Source: a virus. From it: a DNA stretch of 34,571 bases. Location of the stretch: positions 1 through 34,571 of the IMG/VR virus record IMGVR_UViG_3300009703_000061; one strand, 5' to 3'. The position numbers and the translations under genes were made by a program. Below the pieces are notes generated by a model that had not been told where the DNA came from, searched no databases, and saw nothing but the letters and a program-made list of their open reading frames with translations. Of the stretch, positions 2,113-25,258 are shown in pieces; the first letter of the stretch is position 1; the number at the start of each line of letters is the position of its first letter.

Positions 2113-2336
2113 AAACATATATTCATGTCAATCAACATAAAATTCGTGCAAACAAAAAACACGGAACTAACGAACCAGTGATAACAGTAAAACAAGGTAA
2201 GAAAAATACTTACTGTCATTCAGTAGAAGTGATGGGGCCATCAGTAGTTCGTTATGGTGGAAATGAAAAACCAATACTATCTTGTGGTGCAAGAGTTGTT
2301 ATTGAAACTGAAAGTGAAGTGAGAATAAATGATTGA
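2109..2336 (+). CDS. Conserved small hypothetical protein between gp47 and gp46
   Basis: A 75-residue basic protein with no recognised domain. It alternates short hydrophobic strands and turns (TYIHVNQHKIRANKKHG, PVITVKQGKKNTY, VEVMGPSVVRYGG, GARVVIETESEVRI), suggesting a small beta-rich fold, possibly nucleic-acid binding because of the Lys/Arg/His-rich N-terminus. Its ATG overlaps the gp47 stop as ATGA, so translation is probably coupled to gp47. Position inside the gp47-gp46 pair suggests a recombination-linked role, but this is inference. Confidence 0.75.
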   Translation: MKTYIHVNQHKIRANKKHGTNEPVITVKQGKKNTYCHSVEVMGPSVVRYGGNEKPILSCGARVVIETESEVRIND

Positions 2337-2958
2337 ACATTTACATGGATTGCCAGTCCAACGTGAACACACATCATTTAGATTAACTGATGATGAATTA
2401 AGTGCGACTACAAATAATGAATATTTCACCATGATTAATCATATAACAAAGACAAGTTTTTTACTAAAAGATTCTAGGTTAAGTCGTGTAAAAACTTTTT
2501 TAGATGAACGTATGAAAAATTACATCGAAAATGTTGTTGAATTAGATGATAAGTTTGTGATGACACAAAGTTGGTCAACTTTGACAAAAAGAGGTGAATC
2601 ACACCATATACACAATCATTCAAATACTATATTTAGTTTGGTGTTTTATGTTAGTTCTGAGGGTGAAAAAAGTGGTAATTTCGTATTTGATTTTCAGCCA
2701 AGTAGGTTGAGGGAGAGGTGGGATTTTTCATTCAAGGTAAAAAGATATAATACTTTCAATTCGTCCACTTGGGAATATGTGGTTAATACTGGTGATTTGA
2801 TAATATTTCCAGCATGGATGCATCACTATACTAAAGAAAATATCACTAATAAAGATAGAATAGTTATAGGCGCTAACTATTTTATTCATGGTGTGACAGG
2901 ATCAACAAAGGGAGTTGATAAAATTGGAATAAAAGTGGGAGATCTTGAAGATGATTAA
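2329..2958 (+). CDS. 2-oxoglutarate/Fe(II)-dependent oxygenase (family 5 type), copy 1
   Basis: A 209-residue double-stranded beta-helix oxygenase. Around residues 85-110 it has WSTLTKRGESHHIHNHSNT followed by FSLVFYVSS, matching the iron-binding HxH/HxN plus (S)GVYYV pattern of the 2OG-FeII_Oxy_5 family. The distal part, GDLIIFPAWMHHYTKEN then DRIVIGANYF, gives the second iron histidine and the arginine that binds 2-oxoglutarate. Such enzymes hydroxylate proteins or small molecules; the substrate is unknown. It overlaps the previous gene by eight bases and sits in the gp47-gp46 gap. It seems more A/T-rich in codon choice than gp46/gp47, consistent with a later insertion. Confidence 0.8.
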   Translation: MIEHLHGLPVQREHTSFRLTDDELSATTNNEYFTMINHITKTSFLLKDSRLSRVKTFLDERMKNYIENVVELDDKFVMTQSWSTLTKRGESHHIHNHSNTIFSLVFYVSSEGEKSGNFVFDFQPSRLRERWDFSFKVKRYNTFNSSTWEYVVNTGDLIIFPAWMHHYTKENITNKDRIVIGANYFIHGVTGSTKGVDKIGIKVGDLEDD

Positions 2959-9661: not shown

Positions 9662-9694
9662 AAAAGGGGTCTTGACAACAGACCCCTTTTTATG
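9662..9694 (+). terminator. Rho-independent terminator after hsp20
   Basis: AAAAGGGGTC (9662-9671) pairs perfectly with GACCCCTTTT (9681-9690) around a 9-base loop and continues into T (9691). This is the clearest terminator in the window. Its loop is TTGACAACA, so the -35 box of the next promoter is in the loop. Confidence 0.88.
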
Positions 9695-9701
9695 TTACAT
9701 T
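9672..9701 (+). promoter_or_regulatory. Sigma70-like promoter inside the hsp20 terminator
   Basis: TTGACA (9672-9677) in the terminator loop, an 18-base spacer and TACATT (9696-9701). The -10 is followed by GGTTCTTATAA, as at the gp55 promoter. It would drive the tandem oxygenases and perhaps the clamp genes. Confidence 0.6.
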
Positions 9702-9702
9702 G

Positions 9703-9722
9703 GTTCTTATAAGTATAAGAAC
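9703..9722 (+). promoter_or_regulatory. Perfect palindrome downstream of the -10: operator-like site
   Basis: GTTCTTATAAGTATAAGAAC is a 9-bp inverted repeat with a 2-base centre, placed 1-21 bases after the -10, where a repressor would block start or elongation. Its core TATAAGTA is shared with the palindrome at 5481-5496 and is close to the late-promoter consensus. Confidence 0.5.
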
Positions 9723-9749
9723 GATTCGTTTTTGAAGGAGAACTATTTT

Positions 9750-10676
9750 ATGGTAGAAGTTACGCACAAAGATAAAACTGAAGAAGAATCAAAGGTTATT
9801 GAAGAAGTTAGAAAAACTGGAAAACAATGGATGGGCGAAACATCAATGGATGAGGTTGAAAAACCAGAACCAGAAGGTGAGAGAGTTAATCTAAAAATCA
9901 ATCAAATACCAGCAATCACATTCTTAGAGGGTAACCTACCCAAAGCCATGTTAGATGAACTCAATGCACACGTTGATGAACACAGAGAAAAAATGGCAGA
10001 TTACTCTGGTAATCTAGTTGGTCAAATCAAACAAACTGAAAAGTCACAACAACTATCTCTGGATAGAGAACACCCAACAGTACAAGGTCTTATGAACTTA
10101 TTGGGAAGTGCTGGTCGTGCATTTCTAAAAACATATGCTGGTCAGATACCGATGGAAGGTGGTGCAGATGCTTTTGATAAAGCACCTGTAGATTGTTTCT
10201 CTATGTGGACAGTTCATAGTTATGAAGGTGACTACAATCCACTGCATGATCACGATGTTTCCTATGACCAGAAATGCATGGCATTCTCAATAATACTTTA
10301 TTGTATGGTGCCTCCACAGATTGCAAAGTTAGGAGATAGTAAACAACTACACTCTAATGGTGGTGCAACTGATGGTTGTACATATTTCTGTTGGGGAACA
10401 AATACTGGTGCAGACCATTTAGTTCTCAAACCAAAAACAGATAGGTATGTAGTTCCAAAAGAAGGTAAGTTTCTAATATTCCCATCTTGGTTAAATCACA
10501 GTGTTGCACCATTCTATGGGCCAGGTGAAAGAAGAACACTATCTGCAAACTTTAGAGTGCCATTCGGTGCATCTGCGAAAGATGAAAGTAGTGGAGATTT
10601 ACATTTCAAAAATATGTTTGAAAGAGATAAAGAACCAGAGGTAACTGCTGACACGCCCATGAGTGACATACTGTAA
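9750..10676 (+). CDS. 2-oxoglutarate/Fe(II)-dependent oxygenase, tandem copy A (copy 2 of 7)
   Basis: Starting at ATG 9750 (GAAGGAG at 9734-9740 upstream) gives 308 residues. An acidic N-terminal tail of about 60 residues precedes the oxygenase core. The signature WTVHSYEGDYNPLHDHD supplies the HxH/HxD iron ligands; GKFLIFPSWLNHSVAPFYG supplies the distal histidine, and ERRTLSANF the 2-oxoglutarate arginine. It is clearly paralogous to the next gene, which shares VGQIrQnEKS, WTVHSxxGDYNPLHDH and NHxVxPFYGxGERRTLxAN. The substrate is unknown. The frame is open upstream to a TTG at 9672, but that lies in the terminator loop and cannot be the start. Confidence 0.82.
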   Translation: MVEVTHKDKTEEESKVIEEVRKTGKQWMGETSMDEVEKPEPEGERVNLKINQIPAITFLEGNLPKAMLDELNAHVDEHREKMADYSGNLVGQIKQTEKSQQLSLDREHPTVQGLMNLLGSAGRAFLKTYAGQIPMEGGADAFDKAPVDCFSMWTVHSYEGDYNPLHDHDVSYDQKCMAFSIILYCMVPPQIAKLGDSKQLHSNGGATDGCTYFCWGTNTGADHLVLKPKTDRYVVPKEGKFLIFPSWLNHSVAPFYGPGERRTLSANFRVPFGASAKDESSGDLHFKNMFERDKEPEVTADTPMSDIL

Positions 10677-10680
10677 TATC

Positions 10681-11529
10681 ATGGAGTCAAATTATCAAGT
10701 AACAACACAAATGCGAAACAAATTCGCAATGCATATGTTTCATGTAAAACTACCTATGGATTTTGTTGATAAGATAAATGCATATATTGATAACACACTT
10801 ATACCACTAGACGATAATTATGGTAAAGTAAAAGGTAATGCAGAACTAGAACATAGTTACTCAAAAGGTCTTGTTGGACAGATACGTCAAAATGAAAAAT
10901 CTGCACAATTAGATTGTAAAGTATTAGAAGATACTGAGGATGCAAAACTTTTGAAGTCTACTCTTGATGCAACCTCTCAAGAATATTTACGTCAGATTGG
11001 TCATGGAGATAGTGTTCCAGATGTATTCGAAGCATGGACAGTTCATAGTTTTGCTGGTGACTATAATCCACTACACGATCATGGTGTAATGTCGCCTGGT
11101 GGTTTATCTATGATTTTATATCTACAAGTTCCAGAGTGCATATCATCACTACCAGACCCAGACGATAAGGGTGGAAGTATTTGGTTCAATGATAGTAGTG
11201 GTGATGTTGATGGTTTTACATATTTTATCTGGGCTCAGAGAAATCAAGATATGTTGAGAAAGTTATATCCAGTAGGTGAAGAATATTTCAAACCTAAAGT
11301 TGGTAGTCTTTTAATATTCCCTAATTGGTTGAAACACGCAGTGATGCCGTTTTATGGTGAGGGTGAAAGAAGAACTTTGGCTGCAAACGCAAATATAATT
11401 TCACCAGAGTTATTTGATTGGAAGAATGCAACTGATGAAGATAGAGCAAAGATACTGAACACTTTCAGAGGAAGTAGAGTTCGTAATGGTGGAGGTGGAG
11501 GAGGTCTTGGTGCAAAGACAAAAGATTGA
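10681..11529 (+). CDS. 2-oxoglutarate/Fe(II)-dependent oxygenase, tandem copy B (copy 3 of 7)
   Basis: A 282-residue paralogue of the preceding gene. It lacks that gene's long acidic N-terminus but has WTVHSFAGDYNPLHDHGV, VGSLLIFPNWLKHAVMPFYG and ERRTLAANANI, giving the two iron histidines, acid and 2-oxoglutarate arginine. The ATG at 10681 is chosen over an in-frame GTG at 10663; neither has a strong ribosome binding site. The C-terminus ends in a run of six glycines and LGAKTKD. The codons of this run double as the GGAGG ribosome binding site of the next gene. Confidence 0.8.
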   Translation: MESNYQVTTQMRNKFAMHMFHVKLPMDFVDKINAYIDNTLIPLDDNYGKVKGNAELEHSYSKGLVGQIRQNEKSAQLDCKVLEDTEDAKLLKSTLDATSQEYLRQIGHGDSVPDVFEAWTVHSFAGDYNPLHDHGVMSPGGLSMILYLQVPECISSLPDPDDKGGSIWFNDSSGDVDGFTYFIWAQRNQDMLRKLYPVGEEYFKPKVGSLLIFPNWLKHAVMPFYGEGERRTLAANANIISPELFDWKNATDEDRAKILNTFRGSRVRNGGGGGGLGAKTKD

Positions 11530-11850: not shown

Positions 11851-12525
11851 ATGAAACTAAGTGAACACACAATATCGGTTCTAAAGAACTATGCAAATAT
11901 AAATCAAAACCTAGTTGTCAAAGAGGGTAATGAGTTACTCACTATGTCATCTATGAAAAACATAGTTGCAAAGGCAACTGTCGCAGAAAGTTTTCCTAGA
12001 GAACTTGCAATCTATGACTTGAATGAGTTCCTTGCAGCTCTATCATTATTCAAAAGTCCTGTCTTAGATTTTGATGATCAGTTCGTCACAATCAAAGAAG
12101 AAAACAATCCTACTAATTCTTTGAAGTATTTTTACTCTGACCCATCTGTGGTGCAGACACCATCAAAGACAATCACTATGCCGTCAGAGGAAGTTACCTT
12201 TGAGTTAAGTAATAGTGACTTATCTAAAATGAAGAAAGCATCAGCAGTTATCGGTGCTCCAGATATGACACTTGAAAGACTCAATGGTAGTTCATCTCTT
12301 GTTGCAAAAGATAAAAAGAATGATACTGCAAATAACTATTCATTAGACGTAAATACTAATGGTGATGGTGAGTTTAAGTTTTTCTTCAAAGTCGAAAATC
12401 TAAAACTTATGGATGGTTCTTATGATGTTGCGATATCATCAAAGAATATTAGTCATTTTAAAAACAAAAGTTCTGATGTAGAATACTGGATTGCACTTGA
12501 ACCAGAGTCAACATACTCTGCATGA
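11851..12525 (+). CDS. 45: Sliding clamp gp45
   Basis: A 224-residue PCNA-type clamp (T4 gp45 has 228) that holds DNA polymerase on DNA and, in T4, activates late transcription with gp55. The N-terminus MKLSEHTISVLKNYANINQN, followed by FPRELAIYDLNEFLAALSLF and VLDFDDQFVTI, follows the gp45 pattern. The start at ATG 11851 has AAAAGGAG (11837-11844) upstream. The order gp45 - gp44 - gp62 - RegA - gp43 is that of T4, with accessory genes inserted. It overlaps the next gene by four bases (ATGA at 12522). Confidence 0.95.
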   Translation: MKLSEHTISVLKNYANINQNLVVKEGNELLTMSSMKNIVAKATVAESFPRELAIYDLNEFLAALSLFKSPVLDFDDQFVTIKEENNPTNSLKYFYSDPSVVQTPSKTITMPSEEVTFELSNSDLSKMKKASAVIGAPDMTLERLNGSSSLVAKDKKNDTANNYSLDVNTNGDGEFKFFFKVENLKLMDGSYDVAISSKNISHFKNKSSDVEYWIALEPESTYSA

Positions 12526-13115
12526 CGGAAACTTTTATATACGAAACTATGTTGAGTGATGTATCACTCTGTGATGCGTTGATTGATTATCATAATAACA
12601 ATCTAGAATATAAAGCTAGAGGACAAACTGGTTCTGGTGTAAGTAATGCAAAGATATCAACTGATGTTTTTGTTCATGCTGGAATACAAAATCCTATAGT
12701 CTTTATGTATGTAAAAGAACTATTTGATGCAGTCAATAAATATTTTGACAAATATAACTTGAGTGATATGCTTACAGTTACGATAAAAGAAACTTGGAAC
12801 ATTCAACACTACAAACCAAATGAGGGGTTTTTTGGTTGGCACTGTGAAAGAAGTGCGTATCAGTCAGATCAGAGAGCGTTAGTGTTTATGACATATCTCA
12901 ACGATGTGAGTGATGGTGGTGAAACAGAATTTTTTCATCAAAAGTTAAAAGTGAAACCAGTAAAAGGTAAAACAGTGATATGGCCAACAGACTTTACACA
13001 TTTGCATAGAGGCGTAACATCACCTACTGAAGACAAGTACATTGCTACGGGATGGTTCAATTTTTTAGATGCGATGGATGTTCACAAAATGAATATGGAT
13101 AAAGTCAAGTCTTGA
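12522..13115 (+). CDS. 2-oxoglutarate/Fe(II)-dependent oxygenase, prolyl-4-hydroxylase-like (copy 4 of 7)
   Basis: A 197-residue oxygenase. IQHYKPNEGFFGWHCERS gives the first histidine with Glu in the place of the usual Asp (HxE rather than HxD). FMTYLNDVSDGGETEFFHQK is the typical prolyl-hydroxylase strand, and VIWPTDFTHLHRGVTSP gives the second histidine; DKYIATGWFNF provides a Lys where Arg or Lys binds 2-oxoglutarate. The HxE variant may still bind iron but should be tested. It sits between clamp and clamp-loader genes. The substrate is unknown. Confidence 0.82.
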   Translation: MTETFIYETMLSDVSLCDALIDYHNNNLEYKARGQTGSGVSNAKISTDVFVHAGIQNPIVFMYVKELFDAVNKYFDKYNLSDMLTVTIKETWNIQHYKPNEGFFGWHCERSAYQSDQRALVFMTYLNDVSDGGETEFFHQKLKVKPVKGKTVIWPTDFTHLHRGVTSPTEDKYIATGWFNFLDAMDVHKMNMDKVKS

Positions 13116-14072: not shown

Positions 14073-14084
14073 GGGGAGTTGGAT

Positions 14085-14648
14085 ATGCAAGAACAATATG
14101 ATTGGTGGCCATTTGAAACCCCAATAATAGATAAAAAATTAATTCAGATGTTTAATAAAACCATATTAGAGAATTATCATGATACTGAGGATGCAGTGCA
14201 TGGTGCAACAGATAATGATGGTAATTATTTAAAGAATATAAAACCTAAAAATATTATTTTAAAACATATACCAGATCCTTATAGTGAAATACTTAGTATG
14301 GCATTCAATGTTTGTCACTATAAATTTGGTTTCAATACTTTTCCACAAAATGTTTGGGATGAATTATTATATAATGTTTATTCTAGTGACATTAAAGGTA
14401 GATATGGTGAACATCATGATGGATCTAGACTTCTGTCACACGATATAAAAATGACATTTTTACTAAATTTATCAGAAGAACCATATGAAGGTGGTGATTT
14501 TATCATTGATAAAAAACCTCAACATTTTTTTAGAGAGCCTGGGACTGCTATTTTGTTTAAATCGTACATAAAACACGAAGTCACACCTGTTACTAGAGGT
14601 GAGAGAAAATCATTGACGTATTTCATATGTGGGCCTAAGTTTCAATGA
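14085..14648 (+). CDS. 2-oxoglutarate/Fe(II)-dependent oxygenase, PKHD-type (copy 5 of 7)
   Basis: 187 residues from ATG 14085; GGGGAG (14073-14078) is six bases upstream, and a TTG at 14079 is too close to it. GRYGEHHDGS gives the H-x-D iron motif, FLLNLSEEPYEGGDFIID the family strand, GTAILFKSYIKHEVTPV the distal histidine, and RGERKSLTYFICG the 2-oxoglutarate arginine. It belongs to the PiuC/PKHD-like oxygenases; the substrate is unknown. It seems more AT-rich in codon choice than gp44 and gp62 on either side, suggesting a recent insertion at this junction. Confidence 0.84.
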   Translation: MQEQYDWWPFETPIIDKKLIQMFNKTILENYHDTEDAVHGATDNDGNYLKNIKPKNIILKHIPDPYSEILSMAFNVCHYKFGFNTFPQNVWDELLYNVYSSDIKGRYGEHHDGSRLLSHDIKMTFLLNLSEEPYEGGDFIIDKKPQHFFREPGTAILFKSYIKHEVTPVTRGERKSLTYFICGPKFQ

Positions 14649-15904: not shown

Positions 15905-18388
15905 ATGAAATTTTATACAAATGTTACTCGCTGGGGTAATAACCTACTAATCAGAGAATATGTAAACGGACAAAGACTTAATCGTAGGGTTAAGTATTCT
16001 CCTACACTTTACATGAGAGTTGCAAAACCAACAGAGTATAAAACTCTTGATGGTAATTTTGTGACTCCAGTTTCACATGAAACAATGAAAGAGGCAAGTG
16101 ATTGGATTGACAACTATAAGAACCAATCACATCTAGTCTTTGGTAATACACAGTATGCATATTCTTACATTGCAGACCAATATCCAAATCGAGTAGATTG
16201 GGATATAGAGAAACTTCTCATAGTGACTATCGACATTGAAGTTGCGTGTGAGAATGGTTTTCCTAATCCAGAAGCTGCAATAGAACCATTACTATCAATT
16301 ACAATCAAGAATCATCAGACAAAAGAAATAGTTGTCTGGGGTATAGGTGACTTCCAAACAAAACGTGATGATATAAAATATGTCAAGTGTGAAAGTGAAC
16401 GTCATCTGATACAAGACTTTCTTGCGTTCTGGGATTATAATCAACCAGATATTATTACAGGTTGGAATACAGAGTTCTTTGATATTCCCTATCTATGTAA
16501 TCGTATCATCAATCTTTGTGGTGAAGATGAGGTCAAAAGACTATCGCCTTGGAAAAGTGTAAACAGTAGAAGTATTTTTAAGATGGGTCGAACACATCAA
16601 GTATATGATATACAAGGTGTTTCGCATCTTGACTACTTTGATCTATATCGTAAGTTCACCTACACTGCACAAGAGTCATATCGACTTGACCACATTGCAT
16701 ATGTCGAGTTGGGTGAACGTAAAGATGACAATCCTTATGAAACATTTCGTGATTGGTATACAAATGACTATCAATCATTTATTGAATATAATATTATGGA
16801 CGTTGAACTTGTCGATAGATTAGAAGACAAGATGAGATTGATTGAACTTCTTCTGACTATGGCCTATGAAGCAAAGGTAAATTACATGGACGTTCTTGGT
16901 TCTGTTAAGTATTGGGATATATTGATTTACAATTATCTACGAGAAAAGAATATCATGATACCACAGAAAAACGCATCAAGTAAATCAGAGAAGTTTGAGG
17001 GTGCATATGTGAAAGACCCTCAAGTTGGCCAACACAAGTGGGTCATGTCGTTTGACTTGAATAGTTTGTATCCACATCTTATAATGCAGTATAACATATC
17101 GCCTGAGACTCTAGTGTCACAAAATAAAGTAAAAGATATGTCTGTAGATAAACTATTGTCTAAAAAAACTGACACATCATTTATGAAGAGTGCGACACTC
17201 ACACCGAATGGTGCATTGTTCAAAACTAGTAAAAAAGGTTTTCTCCCAGAGATTATGGAGAGTATGTACAATGATCGTGTGAAGTATAAGAAACTCATGT
17301 TGCATTCTAAACAGGAGTATGAGAATACCAAAGACCCTAAACTTCTCAAGGATATATCGAAGTATGATAATATACAGATGGCCAAGAAGATATCACTCAA
17401 CTCTGCTTATGGTGCAATTGGTAATCAATACTTTCGTTACTATGACCTACTTATCGCAGAGGGTATCACTACTGCTGGTCAGTTGTCTATTCGTTGGATT
17501 GAGAATAAGGTCAACCAGTATATGAACAAACTACTAGACACAGACAATAAGGATTATGTGATTGCATCTGATACAGATTCAATCTATGTGACATTTGATA
17601 AGTTAGTAGAAAAGTTCAATCCTAAAAATCCAGTAAACTTTCTGGATACAATTGCAAAAGAGAAACTAGAACCATTTATTGATAAGTCTTATCAAGAACT
17701 AGCTGACTATACAAATGCGTATGACCAGAAGATGCAGATGAAACGAGAAGTGATTGCAGATAAAGGTATCTGGACAGCGAAGAAAAGATATATTCTGAAT
17801 GCACATGATGTCGAAGGTGTTCGATACAAAGAACCACAACTCAAGATGCTCGGAATTGAGGCTGTCAAGTCAAGTACGCCCGCACCTTGTAGACAGAAGA
17901 TTAAAGATGCACTTAAAATAATTATGAGTGGTGATGAAAAGATGCTAAATAGTTTTATACAAGAATTTAGGGAAGAGTTTATGGAGTTACCACCAGAGGA
18001 GATTGCATACCCAAGATCGTTGAATGGTCTGTCAAAGTTTTCGTCATCAGATAGTCTGTTTGCAAAAGGCTCCCCCATCCATGTCAAAGGCGGTATTCTG
18101 TATAATCACTTGGTCAAGAAAAACAAACTAGGACACAAGTATCCTTACATTCAAGAAGGTGATAAGATTAAGTTCCTACATCTCAAGTTGCCAAATATCT
18201 ATCAATCAAGTGCAATGTCTTTTATAACAAAGTTACCAAAAGAACTTGACTTTCACAAAATAATCGACTATAATGTACAATTCGAAAAAAGTTTTGTAGA
18301 ACCACTCAAGTTCATTACAGACAAAATACTTTGGAGAATAGACGATAGTTATGGAACACAAGGAACATTGGAGGATTTTTTTACATGA
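15905..18388 (+). CDS. 43: DNA polymerase gp43 (family B)
   Basis: An 827-residue family B polymerase with proofreading (marine T4-like forms are near this size; T4 has 898). Exonuclease motif I DIEVACENGFPNP has D110 and E112, followed by GWNTEFFDIPYL (Exo II). Polymerase motif A DLNSLYPHLIMQYNIS is near 384-399, motif B KKISLNSAYGAIGNQYF near 491-507 and motif C ASDTDSIYV near 554-562. The C-terminal end, DSYGTQGTLEDFF, is the clamp-binding tail expected for gp43. No intein or split is seen. A promoter lies directly upstream, and the next gene starts at the stop codon (ATGA). Confidence 0.97.
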   Translation: MKFYTNVTRWGNNLLIREYVNGQRLNRRVKYSPTLYMRVAKPTEYKTLDGNFVTPVSHETMKEASDWIDNYKNQSHLVFGNTQYAYSYIADQYPNRVDWDIEKLLIVTIDIEVACENGFPNPEAAIEPLLSITIKNHQTKEIVVWGIGDFQTKRDDIKYVKCESERHLIQDFLAFWDYNQPDIITGWNTEFFDIPYLCNRIINLCGEDEVKRLSPWKSVNSRSIFKMGRTHQVYDIQGVSHLDYFDLYRKFTYTAQESYRLDHIAYVELGERKDDNPYETFRDWYTNDYQSFIEYNIMDVELVDRLEDKMRLIELLLTMAYEAKVNYMDVLGSVKYWDILIYNYLREKNIMIPQKNASSKSEKFEGAYVKDPQVGQHKWVMSFDLNSLYPHLIMQYNISPETLVSQNKVKDMSVDKLLSKKTDTSFMKSATLTPNGALFKTSKKGFLPEIMESMYNDRVKYKKLMLHSKQEYENTKDPKLLKDISKYDNIQMAKKISLNSAYGAIGNQYFRYYDLLIAEGITTAGQLSIRWIENKVNQYMNKLLDTDNKDYVIASDTDSIYVTFDKLVEKFNPKNPVNFLDTIAKEKLEPFIDKSYQELADYTNAYDQKMQMKREVIADKGIWTAKKRYILNAHDVEGVRYKEPQLKMLGIEAVKSSTPAPCRQKIKDALKIIMSGDEKMLNSFIQEFREEFMELPPEEIAYPRSLNGLSKFSSSDSLFAKGSPIHVKGGILYNHLVKKNKLGHKYPYIQEGDKIKFLHLKLPNIYQSSAMSFITKLPKELDFHKIIDYNVQFEKSFVEPLKFITDKILWRIDDSYGTQGTLEDFFT

Positions 18389-20028
18389 AAACTATATACA
18401 AAAAAGAAGATTTACTTTCTATACCAAAGCAAGAACAAGATAAACATAATGATGGATTTCCCATTTTTAAGAGGTGTGAGATATCAATCCAACTGTATTT
18501 TGAACTTTTGATTAAAGATAAACATTTACAAGCTAAGATGTTGGAAACTGCTGTAGAAAAGTTTTTTTCAGATCCAGAACAGATAATTGATCCTAATGAT
18601 AAATGTAATAGAGATGATAAAGGTGATATTAAAAAGAAACAGGGTATCTTAACAACTATATTTAAAAACAGACCTTTACCAGATTTATCACTAATAGTTA
18701 AACAAAAGTGGAGACTTCTAAAAGATGGGAGGAGTGAGTGTACAGTGGCCGCAGTAAATGATGGTGGTCACAGAAGTAGGACTATACTAGAGTTTATGTT
18801 GGGCAAATTTAAAACTGGTTCTAACACAGTTTTTCACTCTAAAAATGGACAGATCGTAAACATTGGTAATATGACATATAAAGAGATAGAAAAGGAATAT
18901 CCTTTAGCGATAGAACAGTTGAAAGAATACAAATTAGCTTTGGTCATACAGTGGAATCTTGATGCGAAACAAAGAAAAGAAGATTTTGATAACAGAAACA
19001 CTGTTACTATTGTGAAAGAACAAGAGGGCAGGAACGCATTTGATGATAACTTGATAGCTGATGCAGTTCGTAATACCACCAGAAAAGTTGATGGTGAAAT
19101 TGAACCAAACCCAGTGCATAACTTGTATAAAAACAATATTTTTACTTTTCCAAATTCTAGGATGGTATACGATGAGATAGTTGCCAAAATCATGAAAATG
19201 ATTTCTGAATCAGATGAGAAAGGTGCAAAAGTGGATCTATCACAGGGTGCCTTAGATGAGTTTTATTTAAAAGGTAGTTATGCTGGAACAGATACTGGCG
19301 AGTATGTGGTTCAACCAAAAGTGTTTGAAAAACTCAAGAAGGAAACATACTTTGTCTTAGACTTTTTATACGGAGTTTTGACAAACTGGCCAACAAAAAT
19401 TTATCCAGTAGAACAACACGTTGTACACGCACTTTTGAGATGGTATTTCCAATACAAAAAAGATATACAGAATAAACATATGACATTGATATATGATAAA
19501 AAGTTAGTAATAGATTATAAGGTCTTTGCCAAAAAATTTGCATTAGAAGTAATGAAAAAAAATGTAGATGATAAATCAGTTGATGTATGGACAACAGGTG
19601 AGAAAAAACAAAGAGAAAAAGGAGATGCTTTCAAGGGTTATCTTGGTCAATTTAATACAGGTGACAAAACACAAAAAAGTATTGATTGGATTATGGAAAG
19701 TTTTTATTCAGTGGTGGCATCAGTAGAGGATGAGAAAAAATTTGGTCTGACCCATTTTGACTCAAGACCTGCTTTTAAACAAGATGATATAATTAACAGG
19801 TGGTTAGATCTTGGAGAAAAAGATGATTTGGGTAACTCTATTGAAGATGATGACATCGAAGGTGATCATGATATTCCAAGAAGCTGGGGTGTTGTAAGAG
19901 GTGGTATCACTTGTCCAGAAACTAACATGAGAATTTTGCACCGAAAGGACAATAACAAAAAATCAAATAAAATGACTTTTAATGAGTTTAAAGAAAGTTT
20001 ACAAAATGAAACTGAAAAAGCTGCTTGA
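18385..20028 (+). CDS. DUF262-like/HNH nuclease-like protein (GmrSD type)
   Basis: A 547-residue two-part protein. The N-terminal half has AAVNDGGHRSRTILEFML (about 122-139), like the (D/N)GxxR core of DUF262/ParB-like nucleotidase domains, and FDNRNTVTIVKEQEGRNAF, like the N-T...E-R-N-A segment of DUF262. The C-terminus has an HNH pattern: EGDHDIPRSWGVVRGG (H495), then NMRILHRKDNNKKSNK (N514, N523). GmrSD-type enzymes of this layout cut modified phage DNA. Here it could cut competitor or host DNA, or act as a free-standing homing endonuclease next to gp43. It has an AT-rich codon style unlike gp43, and overlaps gp43 by four bases and the PP-loop gene by 23. Confidence 0.72.
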   Translation: MKTIYKKEDLLSIPKQEQDKHNDGFPIFKRCEISIQLYFELLIKDKHLQAKMLETAVEKFFSDPEQIIDPNDKCNRDDKGDIKKKQGILTTIFKNRPLPDLSLIVKQKWRLLKDGRSECTVAAVNDGGHRSRTILEFMLGKFKTGSNTVFHSKNGQIVNIGNMTYKEIEKEYPLAIEQLKEYKLALVIQWNLDAKQRKEDFDNRNTVTIVKEQEGRNAFDDNLIADAVRNTTRKVDGEIEPNPVHNLYKNNIFTFPNSRMVYDEIVAKIMKMISESDEKGAKVDLSQGALDEFYLKGSYAGTDTGEYVVQPKVFEKLKKETYFVLDFLYGVLTNWPTKIYPVEQHVVHALLRWYFQYKKDIQNKHMTLIYDKKLVIDYKVFAKKFALEVMKKNVDDKSVDVWTTGEKKQREKGDAFKGYLGQFNTGDKTQKSIDWIMESFYSVVASVEDEKKFGLTHFDSRPAFKQDDIINRWLDLGEKDDLGNSIEDDDIEGDHDIPRSWGVVRGGITCPETNMRILHRKDNNKKSNKMTFNEFKESLQNETEKAA

Positions 20029-20857
20029 AAAATACATAGAAGTAAACGTACCAAATAAAAATGTAGCAGTTTTGATGGGAGGTGGTGTCGATGCGATATC
20101 TGTGGCTCTGTCTGCACATGATGTTGGTAAGGTAGTCCATGTCTACAGTTTTCATTTAGAGGGTGATGAGTCTTATGATTACCTTAAGGCAAAAGAAATA
20201 TCACAATATATGGGTTGGAAGTTTATCGGTGTCAATGTTCCTAAAACAAATATTATAGAAGACTGGCATAGACTTGTAAAATTAAAATGCAGAAAGAAGA
20301 CTCATTTTGAATGTGTGTTTCCATTTTTGTATGTTTATGAGAAGGTAAAACAAAAACACGTTATCACAGGTTGGGGTGCAGATGCTTATTTTGGCCCATC
20401 TAAAAAAGCGATGATGCGATATTCTAGTCCAATAAAGTGGGATAATTATACAAGATACTGTAAAGATCATAATCAAACACAATTAACTTTTGATGAATTT
20501 CGAAATGCATACTTAGATGGTGACTGTGCTGGTCTGAAAGAACATACAAGACTTGCAGAGTTACACAATAAAAAACATATCACACCATATCTTGACGAAA
20601 AAGTTAGAAGTTATCTTATGAAAAAGTCATGGACAGAATTGAATACACCAAGACAGAAAGAAACAATAAGAAAAGCCTTTACAAAACTAAAAAAGTTTGG
20701 TAATATAAAACCACATATAAATTTACATCTAGGTAGTGGAGTAGATAAGTTGTTTGAAACATTGCTAAATAATGATGATATAAATTTTAAAGGTAGAAAA
20801 AGAATGATGGATATATGTCGAGATTGGTATGAAAAAAATGCAGTATTACCCATATAA
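20006..20857 (+). CDS. Asparagine-synthetase-like PP-loop ATPase, possible amidoligase
   Basis: 283 residues from ATG 20006 (an in-frame ATG at 19982 is possible). The PP-loop NVAVLMGGGVDAISVAL corresponds to the SGG(L/V)DS loop that adenylates a carboxylate or carbonyl, with both serines replaced (GGGVDA). A second motif, VITGWGADAYFGPSKK, matches the GEGADELFGGY loop of asparagine synthetase domain 2. The N-terminal glutaminase domain of AsnB is absent, so ammonia or another amine would be the donor. It overlaps both neighbours (23 and 29 bases), a DUF262/HNH gene and a C5 methyltransferase. I infer amidation of a carboxylated DNA base; a role in tRNA or amino-acid metabolism is an alternative. 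Confidence 0.72.
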   Translation: MKLKKLLEKYIEVNVPNKNVAVLMGGGVDAISVALSAHDVGKVVHVYSFHLEGDESYDYLKAKEISQYMGWKFIGVNVPKTNIIEDWHRLVKLKCRKKTHFECVFPFLYVYEKVKQKHVITGWGADAYFGPSKKAMMRYSSPIKWDNYTRYCKDHNQTQLTFDEFRNAYLDGDCAGLKEHTRLAELHNKKHITPYLDEKVRSYLMKKSWTELNTPRQKETIRKAFTKLKKFGNIKPHINLHLGSGVDKLFETLLNNDDINFKGRKRMMDICRDWYEKNAVLPI

Positions 20858-21986
20858 TTTAAAAGACGTTTACAATGCAGCTGAACAGAATAAGTTTACT
20901 GTGATTTCAACTTTTGCTGGGGGTGGTGGTAGTTCAACAGGGTATAAACTTTCTGGTGGAAACATACTCGCAGTAAATGAGTTTATTGATGAGGCCAGAA
21001 CCACTTATAGAGAAAACTACCCATCAACTCCTATAATACCTGACGATATAAAAGATTTGTCTGGACAAGATATTTTAGATGTTGCTGGTATCGGTGTTGG
21101 TGAGTTGGATATATTAGATGGTAGCCCACCTTGTTCTGCATTTAGTGTTGCTGGTAAATTATCACACAGTAGTGATGGAAAACACTCTGATGGTTGGGGT
21201 CAAACAAAAAACTATTCTGATGGTAAGATGGTGGAGAACATTGAGGATTTATTCTTTGAGTTCTTGCGTATTGCAAAAGATATCAAACCTAAGATTATTA
21301 TTGCAGAGAATGTTGCTGGTCTAACAGTAGGTGAGGCCAAAACATATTTTAATAAAATACAAAATACATTTGAAGAAATAGGATATGATGTATCTGCAAA
21401 AGTTTTAGATAGTCGATACTTTGGTGTAAGTCAGACACGCACAAGAGTTTTCTTCATAGGTATTAGAAGTGATATAACAGAAAAAGTAGGGTTGACATTT
21501 CTAAACATATCTAGTATATTTCCAGTAGAGAGTAAACAATTAGTTCCTCTGGGTCAAGCGTTAGAGGGTTTAGTTTATGATGATGAGGAAGTCAAGATGT
21601 TAACAGAGAAGTTTTCTAAAACTGCATATTGGAAAGATACAGGTAGTAAAATGCCAACCAATCCAGATAAAGTTTTGACAGGTGCAGACTATCACTACAA
21701 AGGACATCACTTTAATCTAAAAAGAGTATCACTTAAAACACCAGCTCCAACTCTTACTGCGATGGGTAGTAATGATACAACTGCTGGTGCGTTTCATTGG
21801 AGTGAACCTAGAAAACTTACAATCGGTGAACTTAAAAGAATACAATCATTACCAGACGATTTTAAACTTACTGGTAAATGGAATCAGAAATCAGAACGTA
21901 TAGGTAGAATGGTGCCACCATTGTTACTCAAGACACTCGCAGACTCAGTTTATGAAAAAGTTATAAAGGTATACAAAAATGGCTGA
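20829..21986 (+). CDS. Cytosine-C5 DNA methyltransferase with atypical motif X
   Basis: A 385-residue C5 methyltransferase with all catalytic blocks: motif I STFAGGGGSSTGY (about 28-40), motif IV GSPPCSAFSVAG with the nucleophile C102, motif VI AENVAGL, motif VIII QTRTRVFFIG, and a target-recognition region at about 250-320. Motif IX-like LKRIQSLPDDFKLTG is followed by motif X RIGRMVPPLLL (357-367), where the usual QxGNxVPP has R357 for Gln and R360 for the near-invariant Asn. A basic residue at that Asn is what lets engineered enzymes use carboxy-SAM. With a carboxy-SAM synthase-like gene directly behind it, the product may be 5-carboxymethylcytosine. The start could also be ATG 20838. Plain methylation remains the conservative reading. 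Confidence 0.9.
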   Translation: MKKMQYYPYNLKDVYNAAEQNKFTVISTFAGGGGSSTGYKLSGGNILAVNEFIDEARTTYRENYPSTPIIPDDIKDLSGQDILDVAGIGVGELDILDGSPPCSAFSVAGKLSHSSDGKHSDGWGQTKNYSDGKMVENIEDLFFEFLRIAKDIKPKIIIAENVAGLTVGEAKTYFNKIQNTFEEIGYDVSAKVLDSRYFGVSQTRTRVFFIGIRSDITEKVGLTFLNISSIFPVESKQLVPLGQALEGLVYDDEEVKMLTEKFSKTAYWKDTGSKMPTNPDKVLTGADYHYKGHHFNLKRVSLKTPAPTLTAMGSNDTTAGAFHWSEPRKLTIGELKRIQSLPDDFKLTGKWNQKSERIGRMVPPLLLKTLADSVYEKVIKVYKNG

Positions 21987-22668
21987 CTTCACATTCGCAC
22001 ATAGAGAAGAAGGGTTTGACAAACACATAGAACAATCTATTCGTGGTTATTCAGACTTGATACAAGATGTGATATCTTTATCTCGACACTTCATAGAAGA
22101 CAATACTAACGTAGTTGACATTGGTTGTTCTACTGGAAAGATGACTAAGGCTTTGATTGATTATAATTTAGATCATTGCAATAATACAAAGTATATCGGT
22201 CTTGAGATTGCAGAGGGTTTTCAAGGAGATCTGCAAAAAAGAAAAGAAGAGATTAACAAGTATTATAGAAATGTTAGGTTTGAAGATAGTGATGCAAGGT
22301 GGTATGAATATGAAGATTGTTCTTTGATAACATCTATATTTACGTTACAGTTCATGCCGAAGTCTGACAGAGAGAAGTTGATAAAAGATATCTATGATGG
22401 TCTTATGTGTGGGGGTGCATACATATTTGCAGAGAAAACAATCTGTGAAAATGCGTTGGTTCAAGACATGATAACTTTTAATTACTATGACTACAAAAGA
22501 AAATCTTTTAGTGCAGAAGATATCATGGACAAAGAACGAACACTAAGACACATGATGAAACCAAATACATGGAAAGAAATAGAGAAGATGGTTACAGATG
22601 CTGGGTTCAGTGTTGTTCAACCATTCTGGAGAAACCACGCATTTGTTGGTGCGTTGGCAGTTAAGTGA
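21979..22668 (+). CDS. cmoA: CmoA-like carboxy-SAM synthase
   Basis: A 229-residue Rossmann methyltransferase-fold protein. The start ADFTFAHREEGFDKHIEQSI and RGYSDLIQDVISLS resemble the F-F-D..V...F...I..SVPGY of CmoA. The SAM loop is VVDIGCSTGKMTKAL (about 44-58), and the C-terminal part YKRKSFSAEDIMDKERTL, then AGFSVVQPFWRNHAFVGALA, tracks the CmoA end (KR..GYS..EI..KR..., AGF...F..FNFGSLVA). CmoA converts SAM and prephenate to carboxy-SAM for tRNA wobble uridine modification. No CmoB gene is in the window, and the gene overlaps the C5 methyltransferase by eight bases, so supply of carboxy-SAM to that enzyme is inferred. It could instead be a general methyltransferase. Confidence 0.75.
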   Translation: MADFTFAHREEGFDKHIEQSIRGYSDLIQDVISLSRHFIEDNTNVVDIGCSTGKMTKALIDYNLDHCNNTKYIGLEIAEGFQGDLQKRKEEINKYYRNVRFEDSDARWYEYEDCSLITSIFTLQFMPKSDREKLIKDIYDGLMCGGAYIFAEKTICENALVQDMITFNYYDYKRKSFSAEDIMDKERTLRHMMKPNTWKEIEKMVTDAGFSVVQPFWRNHAFVGALAVK

Positions 22669-24700: not shown

Positions 24701-25258
24701 ATGGAAACATTCATAAAAACATATGAAAATGCAATACCACACGTTCTGTGTGATATGCTGATTGAAAAGTTTGATGCAAACACAGATCAGTGGGAAAATA
24801 GAGATAAACGAACTGAGGATAGAGGTAATCTAAAATTCAACGAGGTACATCTTTTCAAATATATGGACACTTGGAAAGAAGAAGTGCAAGCACTCGCAGA
24901 CTTATTCAAGATATACGTTGATGACTACAAAAACCAATATAGTGAGTTCATGTTCCCACCCAAGTATGGTATCGAACCATTCAAAATGAAGAAGTATGAA
25001 GCAAATGGTTTGGACGAGTTTGGTTGGCACGTTGATGTAAACTCAACTGGAAGTATGAATAGATGGTTAGCATTCTTTTGTTATTTGTCTGATAATGATG
25101 AGGGATACACAAGTTTTCCATATCAGAAAGTTTCAACAGATTGTAAGAAGGGAACTATTGTAATGTTCCCACCAATGTGGCCATGGCTACATCAAGGTGT
25201 GAAACCAGTAAAGAAACCGAAGTATTTTTTAGGAAGTTATTTACATTATGTCGATTAG
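24701..25258 (+). CDS. 2-oxoglutarate/Fe(II)-dependent oxygenase (copy 7 of 7)
   Basis: A 185-residue oxygenase, METFIKTYENAIPHVLCDML at the start. DEFGWHVDVNS has the H-x-D iron pair, WLAFFCYLSDNDEGYTSF the core strand, KGTIVMFPPMWPWLHQGV the distal histidine, and KPKYFLGSYLHYVD a Lys likely to hold 2-oxoglutarate. It resembles prolyl-4-hydroxylase-like proteins. It directly follows copy 6 but differs strongly from it, so the pair is not a recent duplication. GAGG at 24693-24696 is a close ribosome binding site. Confidence 0.83.
   Translation: METFIKTYENAIPHVLCDMLIEKFDANTDQWENRDKRTEDRGNLKFNEVHLFKYMDTWKEEVQALADLFKIYVDDYKNQYSEFMFPPKYGIEPFKMKKYEANGLDEFGWHVDVNSTGSMNRWLAFFCYLSDNDEGYTSFPYQKVSTDCKKGTIVMFPPMWPWLHQGVKPVKKPKYFLGSYLHYVD

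Follow-up and report, generated by a model that had tools for sequence, protein, structure and literature searches.

The stretch of viral DNA analysed here (the window: the whole of an IMG/VR virus record, 34,571 bases) very probably contains a DNA hypermodification cassette of the CmoA/CmoX/CmoY type from a T4-like marine phage, in which a C5 cytosine methyltransferase homologue with arginine at the motif-X asparagine position is predicted to carboxymethylate cytosine in DNA. The same carboxymethyltransferase reading is already published for a close relative, SpCmoX of Synechococcus phage S-B43, and the window is another example of that known system. We base this reading on the following: (i) the enzyme is 59% identical to SpCmoX (221/372 aligned residues) and keeps the six residues compared at the carboxy-SAM (Cx-SAM) site and nucleophile; (ii) the SpCmoX structure, PDB 8yf3, is its best PDB match by both sequence and fold; (iii) a CmoA homologue overlaps the 3' end of its gene and a CmoY-like gene overlaps the 5' end; and (iv) across related loci the motif-X arginine goes with CmoA, and the window holds no match to CmoB, an absence of little weight since the record may be a fragment. 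Against it stand the score of the CmoA homologue (118 bits relative to a cut-off of 193), a glutamate in that protein at the position of E. coli Arg199, the relatedness and non-random choice of the loci surveyed, and six loci of another type that pair CmoA with a motif-X glycine. T4-like genes in the window include those for PolB, UvsX, clamp, clamp loader, helicase, RegA, SbcC/SbcD-like subunits and a late sigma factor. The features that bear on the argument are:

19982 to 20857, plus strand: CmoY-like asparagine-synthetase-type ligase, 291 aa (PF00733, E 1.1e-8; 40.6% identity to S-B43 CmoY)
20078 to 20095, plus strand: PP-loop (ATP loop) at residues 33-38 of the ligase, reading GGGVDA in place of SGGVDS
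20829 to 21986, plus strand: CmoX, C5 cytosine methyltransferase homologue and predicted DNA cytosine carboxymethyltransferase, 385 aa (PF00145; 8yf3; AlphaFold2 model)
21132 to 21134, plus strand: codon of Cys102, predicted nucleophile in SPPC (aligned with SpCmoX Cys98; position computed from the ORF start)
21897 to 21920, plus strand: motif X, RIGRMVPP, residues 357-364 of CmoX, with R360 encoded by AGA at 21906-21908
21979 to 22668, plus strand: CmoA homologue, predicted carboxy-SAM synthase, 229 aa (TIGR00740; S-B43 CmoA; 4gek)

The motif-X arginine and the likeness to SpCmoX

Sequence, conservation, gene neighbourhood and fold are what the analysis shows for the window itself. The frame of cmoX matches PF00145 with an E-value of 6.4e-56. 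A preliminary description of this DNA had proposed that arginine (R360) replaces the motif-X asparagine, that the remaining motifs are intact, so that the gene is not decaying, and that the enzyme is a natural carboxymethyltransferase, by analogy with M.MpeI N374K. The replacement is confirmed by the AGA codon and by alignment: in phmmer alignments R360 pairs with the motif-X asparagine of M.HaeIII (1dct) and with the arginine of 8yf3, and in a further alignment (A3) its column holds asparagine in both N-type phage enzymes included. The other motifs, FAGGGG, SPPCSAFS (with Cys102), AENV and QTRTR, are all present, which rules out decay. Among the best 80 of 192 relatives on viral contigs, the corresponding motif reads GRMVPP in 79 and GRMVPA in one; the motif-X arginine is neither a product of chance nor private to the window enzyme.

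In sequence searches of the PDB with phmmer, 8yf3 ranked first (E 1e-148), and the AlphaFold2 model of the window enzyme (pLDDT 87.2, pTM 0.88) retrieved the same entry as its best fold match (E 8.3e-45; TM 0.95 by target length). The match of the model to M.HhaI, an ordinary 5mC methyltransferase that has the same fold and catalytic motifs and has reportedly been engineered at Q82/N304, was weaker (E 2.5e-20). SpCmoX was shown in 2025 to be a DNA cytosine C5-carboxymethyltransferase, by a crystal structure with Cx-SAM and by assays in vitro and in E. coli (PMC12783734; here and below, its main text). Its residues F25, E47, F48, D69, C98 and R350, named there for Cx-SAM binding and catalysis (PMC12783734), are all kept in the window enzyme, as F29, E51, F52, D73, C102 and R360. 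According to the same text, Arg350 binds the carboxylate of Cx-SAM and corresponds to Asn304 of M.HhaI, the wild-type enzyme uses Cx-SAM as its sole cofactor and R350N uses neither cofactor, the target is GC, and the S-B43 ligase forms a glycine amide (PMC12783734). Since R350N accepts neither cofactor, an R360N mutant of the window enzyme would not be expected to switch to SAM. M.HhaI uses SAM, and at motif X it has Asn304 where the window enzyme has R360 (Asn304 from PMC12783734). In M.MpeI N374K, an engineered carboxymethyltransferase, a basic residue likewise replaces the motif-X asparagine and permits Cx-SAM use (as cited in PMC12783734, which itself draws the parallel with SpCmoX); that residue is an engineered lysine in an enzyme with a CG target, whereas the arginine of the window enzyme is natural. 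The carboxymethyltransferase function proposed by that analogy thus gains support from a 59%-identical enzyme with the same arginine (PMC12783734).

The three genes lie side by side in the window, as do their homologues in S-B43, in the order CmoY-CmoX-CmoA in the former versus CmoA-CmoY-CmoX in the latter; the ligases (40.6% identical) differ in the ATP loop, GGGVDA versus SGGVDS. For the window CmoA, TIGR00740 is the best NCBIfam family, at 118.1 bits and below its curated cut-off of 193.3 bits, and E. coli CmoA (4gek) matches with an E-value of 1e-23. Arg199 of the E. coli protein, which presumably has a functional role, aligns with glutamate in the window protein, with an arginine adjoining; S-B43 CmoA has Glu-Lys there. 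The CmoA-like neighbour had been recognised in the preliminary description, and stands, with 55-56% identity (55.5% over 99% of the query) to the S-B43 CmoA, whose activity is reported as proven (PMC12783734); the third gene, the CmoY-like ligase, is not mentioned there.

By analogy with the S-B43 enzymes, from which we infer chemistry, cofactor choice, target and a protection of the DNA from restriction, CmoA would convert SAM and prephenate to Cx-SAM. CmoX would flip a cytosine out of the phage DNA, Cys102 would attack C6, and the carboxymethyl group would be moved to C5, yielding 5-carboxymethylcytosine (5cxmC) with an acidic group in place of the methyl; R360 would pair with the cofactor carboxylate and so select Cx-SAM over SAM. 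The target would be GC as in S-B43; the GC dinucleotide is under-represented in the window (observed/expected 0.71), a value that proves nothing about the target. A ligase might then form an amide (that of glycine in S-B43), a last step that the altered ATP loop places in doubt here.

The CmoY-like ligase and the final base

Both serines of the SGGxDS loop, which we take to function in the ATP loop, are gone from the window ligase, and we label the protein CmoY-like, claiming no membership among active ligases from its sequence. Among 42 other ligases aligned, 41 of them readable at this site, the loop reads SGGVDS in 35, SGGADS in three, SGGNGS in two and SSGVDS in one. A search with the window ligase retrieved 12 loci, 11 of which have SGGVDS; the twelfth (L272) has GGGVDA, matches the window without a difference through its entire 3751 bases, and may stem from one and the same population, or even from a single sample. 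Of the 48 columns in which at least 90% of 43 ligases agree, the window protein departs from the consensus at five (residues 32, 33, 38, 91 and 120), two of which are the loop serines.

With both serines lost, the phage may end with bare 5-carboxymethylcytosine in its DNA, the amide step being lost; alternatively the ligase works differently, and the sequence does not decide between the two. That the pathway ends at free 5cxmC, with a ligase catalytically dead or nearly so, is a genuine possibility, if not quite the probable outcome: serine stands at both ends of the loop in the 41 other readable ligases, and 11 of the 12 loci retrieved by ligase search have an unaltered loop, but the frame remains open through 291 codons, few of the conserved columns have changed, the only other GGGVDA record may not be independent of the window, and the role of the serines is presumed. 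Rather unlikely, in our estimate, is an active ligase that attaches an amine other than glycine, ligases being swapped between cassettes and so varying the final base. Consistent with such a ligase, the two proteins do not track each other in their identity to the window (85% for CmoX and 39% for the ligase in locus L005; 70% and 65% in L084), the segment following GADxYFG differs from locus to locus, and clusters of ligases with distinct active-site residues are reported (PMC12783734); the window ligase nevertheless retains the common segment GADAYFGPSKKA, and a different amine would leave the change in the ATP loop unexplained. The ligases are more variable than CmoX, and independently so, as if swapped between cassettes. 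On the reading of a CmoA/CmoX/CmoY-type cassette, the altered ligase makes the window a test case for bare 5cxmC in a natural phage. In 41 arginine-type loci with CmoA and no CmoY match, no evident alternative ligase was found among the 28 largest clusters of neighbouring genes, as judged by length, position and the first 70 residues.

The start of the ligase gene is overlapped by a frame for a 547-aa protein (18385-20028). Its C-terminal part matches HNH weakly (PF01844, E 0.025, under the cut-off); it also has a DGGHR motif that we take to recall DUF262, and its AlphaFold2 model is poor (pLDDT 47.7, pTM 0.33). The protein has no match in named phages; relatives lie beside CmoX loci L013, L015, L016, L020 and L278 and, weakly, in two leucine-type loci (L138, L168).

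Motif-X residues and CmoA across viral loci

We surveyed C5-methyltransferase loci from viral contigs and named phage records, using as queries the window enzyme and three or four other phage enzymes and retaining the best 80 matches per query; a Nostoc asparagine-type enzyme used as query yielded no confirmed relative. The resulting 271 ORFs, each 250 aa or longer, are a non-random sample of related loci. Among the matches listed, CmoA shares the locus with 88 of 93 arginine enzymes including the window copy, L085 (87/92 without it), and with all six glycine enzymes, and is in none of the loci with leucine (0/81), methionine (0/81), asparagine (0/9) or an unread residue (0/1). Three of the five arginine exceptions (L014, L028, L074) end at most 156 bases after cmoX, and the records of the other two (L088, L089) contain CmoA elsewhere. 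When the enzymes are clustered at 80% identity, the counts among the matches listed become 21/23 for arginine, 3/3 for glycine, 0/64 for leucine, methionine and asparagine together, and 0/1 unread. Because flanks were shorter than 0.6 kb in eight of the nine asparagine loci, 25 whole named records were searched with a CmoA profile: CmoA was found in ten (arginine 8/8, glycine 2/2), and this search found none in the remaining 15, comprising one leucine, two methionine and 11 asparagine records and Javan172, whose C5-methyltransferase gene is in two pieces with motif X unread. A nearby CmoA is typical of CmoX enzymes, not universal.

With the motif-X column left out, trees (FastTree and IQ-TREE ultrafast bootstrap, supports taken from unrooted splits) place the arginine enzymes in one clade (0.95 and 73, respectively), within which the window, S-B43 and S-CRM01 group together (IQ-TREE 93). 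The leucine type is sister to this clade with weak support (0.73, 67), and the group that unites the arginine, leucine and methionine types has good support (1.0, 100).

Leucine-type enzymes (L004 and L112-L191) carry GLMVAP and SPPCPPFS, and lack CmoA. Among the matches listed, a TET/JBP-like oxygenase, detected with a profile built from matches within these same loci, accompanies 65 of 81; the counts for the other types are 0/93 (arginine), 0/9 (asparagine), 0/6 (glycine) and 2/81 (methionine, weak matches of 19.6 bits alone). In Methylophilales phage Melnitz (L004), the oxygenase matches PF12851 (E 3.6e-11). Its C5-methyltransferase resembles the window enzyme (44% identity in alignment A3, SPPC motif), and its genome, also that of a T4-like marine phage, has PolB, MazG, RecA and 2OG-oxygenase genes nearby; it differs in its motif-X leucine, in the absence of CmoA from the whole record and in the TET/JBP oxygenase next door. 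Phage TET enzymes are said to oxidise 5mC. Related marine phages thus seem to choose between a carboxymethyl and a methyl/hydroxymethyl handle at C5 through one residue of the cofactor pocket together with a partner gene. In the methionine type (L090, L091 and L192-L271; 81 with motif X read), the motifs are GMSVPP and SPPCSSFS, the cofactor pocket is remodelled, and the loci lack CmoA.

It is most improbable that R360 is a neutral change in an ordinary SAM-dependent 5mC methyltransferase, the adjacent CmoA serving cmo5U modification of tRNA: the fold is indeed that of ordinary C5-methyltransferases, the leucine and methionine relatives without CmoA indicate that the site tolerates change, and CmoB could lie elsewhere if the record is a fragment, but wild-type SpCmoX, 59% identical and with the same arginine, uses Cx-SAM only (PMC12783734), arginine and CmoA occur together in every whole arginine record searched, and the window has no CmoB match. 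On sequence grounds alone, the window supports the rule by which DNA carboxymethyltransferases are recognised from a motif-X arginine accompanied by a phage CmoA.

A glycine-type lineage in staphylococcal phages

The glycine-type enzymes, with motif X reading GGVINQ, come from Staphylococcus phages SPbeta-like and vB-SscS-F1 and four contigs (L093, L095 and L108-L111). Two of the six loci also encode a CmoY-like ligase. The lineage (IQ-TREE 100) branches among asparagine-type enzymes, beside that of Psychrobacillus phage Perkons (47% identical; FastTree 0.97, IQ-TREE 99 for the pair), in which motif X reads GNSIEV and in whose record CmoA was not found. A scan of genome contigs with the glycine enzyme of L093 gave seven loci at 31-35% identity, with the motif-X asparagine in six and motif X unfound in L286; CmoA was not found in any of the seven.

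Because these six loci combine CmoA with an enzyme that has no motif-X arginine, arginine may not be the sole route to Cx-SAM use. We lean slightly towards the view that DNA carboxymethylation arose at least twice, glycine-type enzymes taking Cx-SAM without the arginine. If they do carboxymethylate, arginine would be one of two natural solutions; the lineage offers a test of whether arginine is needed at all. The filter of the published survey, SPPC plus R350 (PMC12783734), would exclude the glycine type, which has no R350, and the words 'Staphylococcus' and 'TET' are absent from the main text of that paper. We recognised no report of CmoA-linked DNA methyltransferases of staphylococcal phages in the literature covered, which leaves out most subscription journals.

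Matches to 2OG-Fe(II) oxygenase families were also noted in six ORFs of the window (2329-2958, 9672-10676, 10663-11529, 12522-13115, 14079-14648 and 24701-25258). CmoA-like genes occur in two further stretches of other records. In Alcaligenes phage Afa-NA1 (L094; 3917-4669 and 7142-8461), an annotated DNA adenine methylase lies about 2.5 kb from the CmoA-like gene, and the 8.7-kb stretch has no C5-methyltransferase match. In a record named Bacteriophage sp. (L096; 4887-5708), the CmoA-like gene lies among membrane-protein and ABC-transporter-like genes, a stretch that, from its translations, looks like a bacterial gene cluster.
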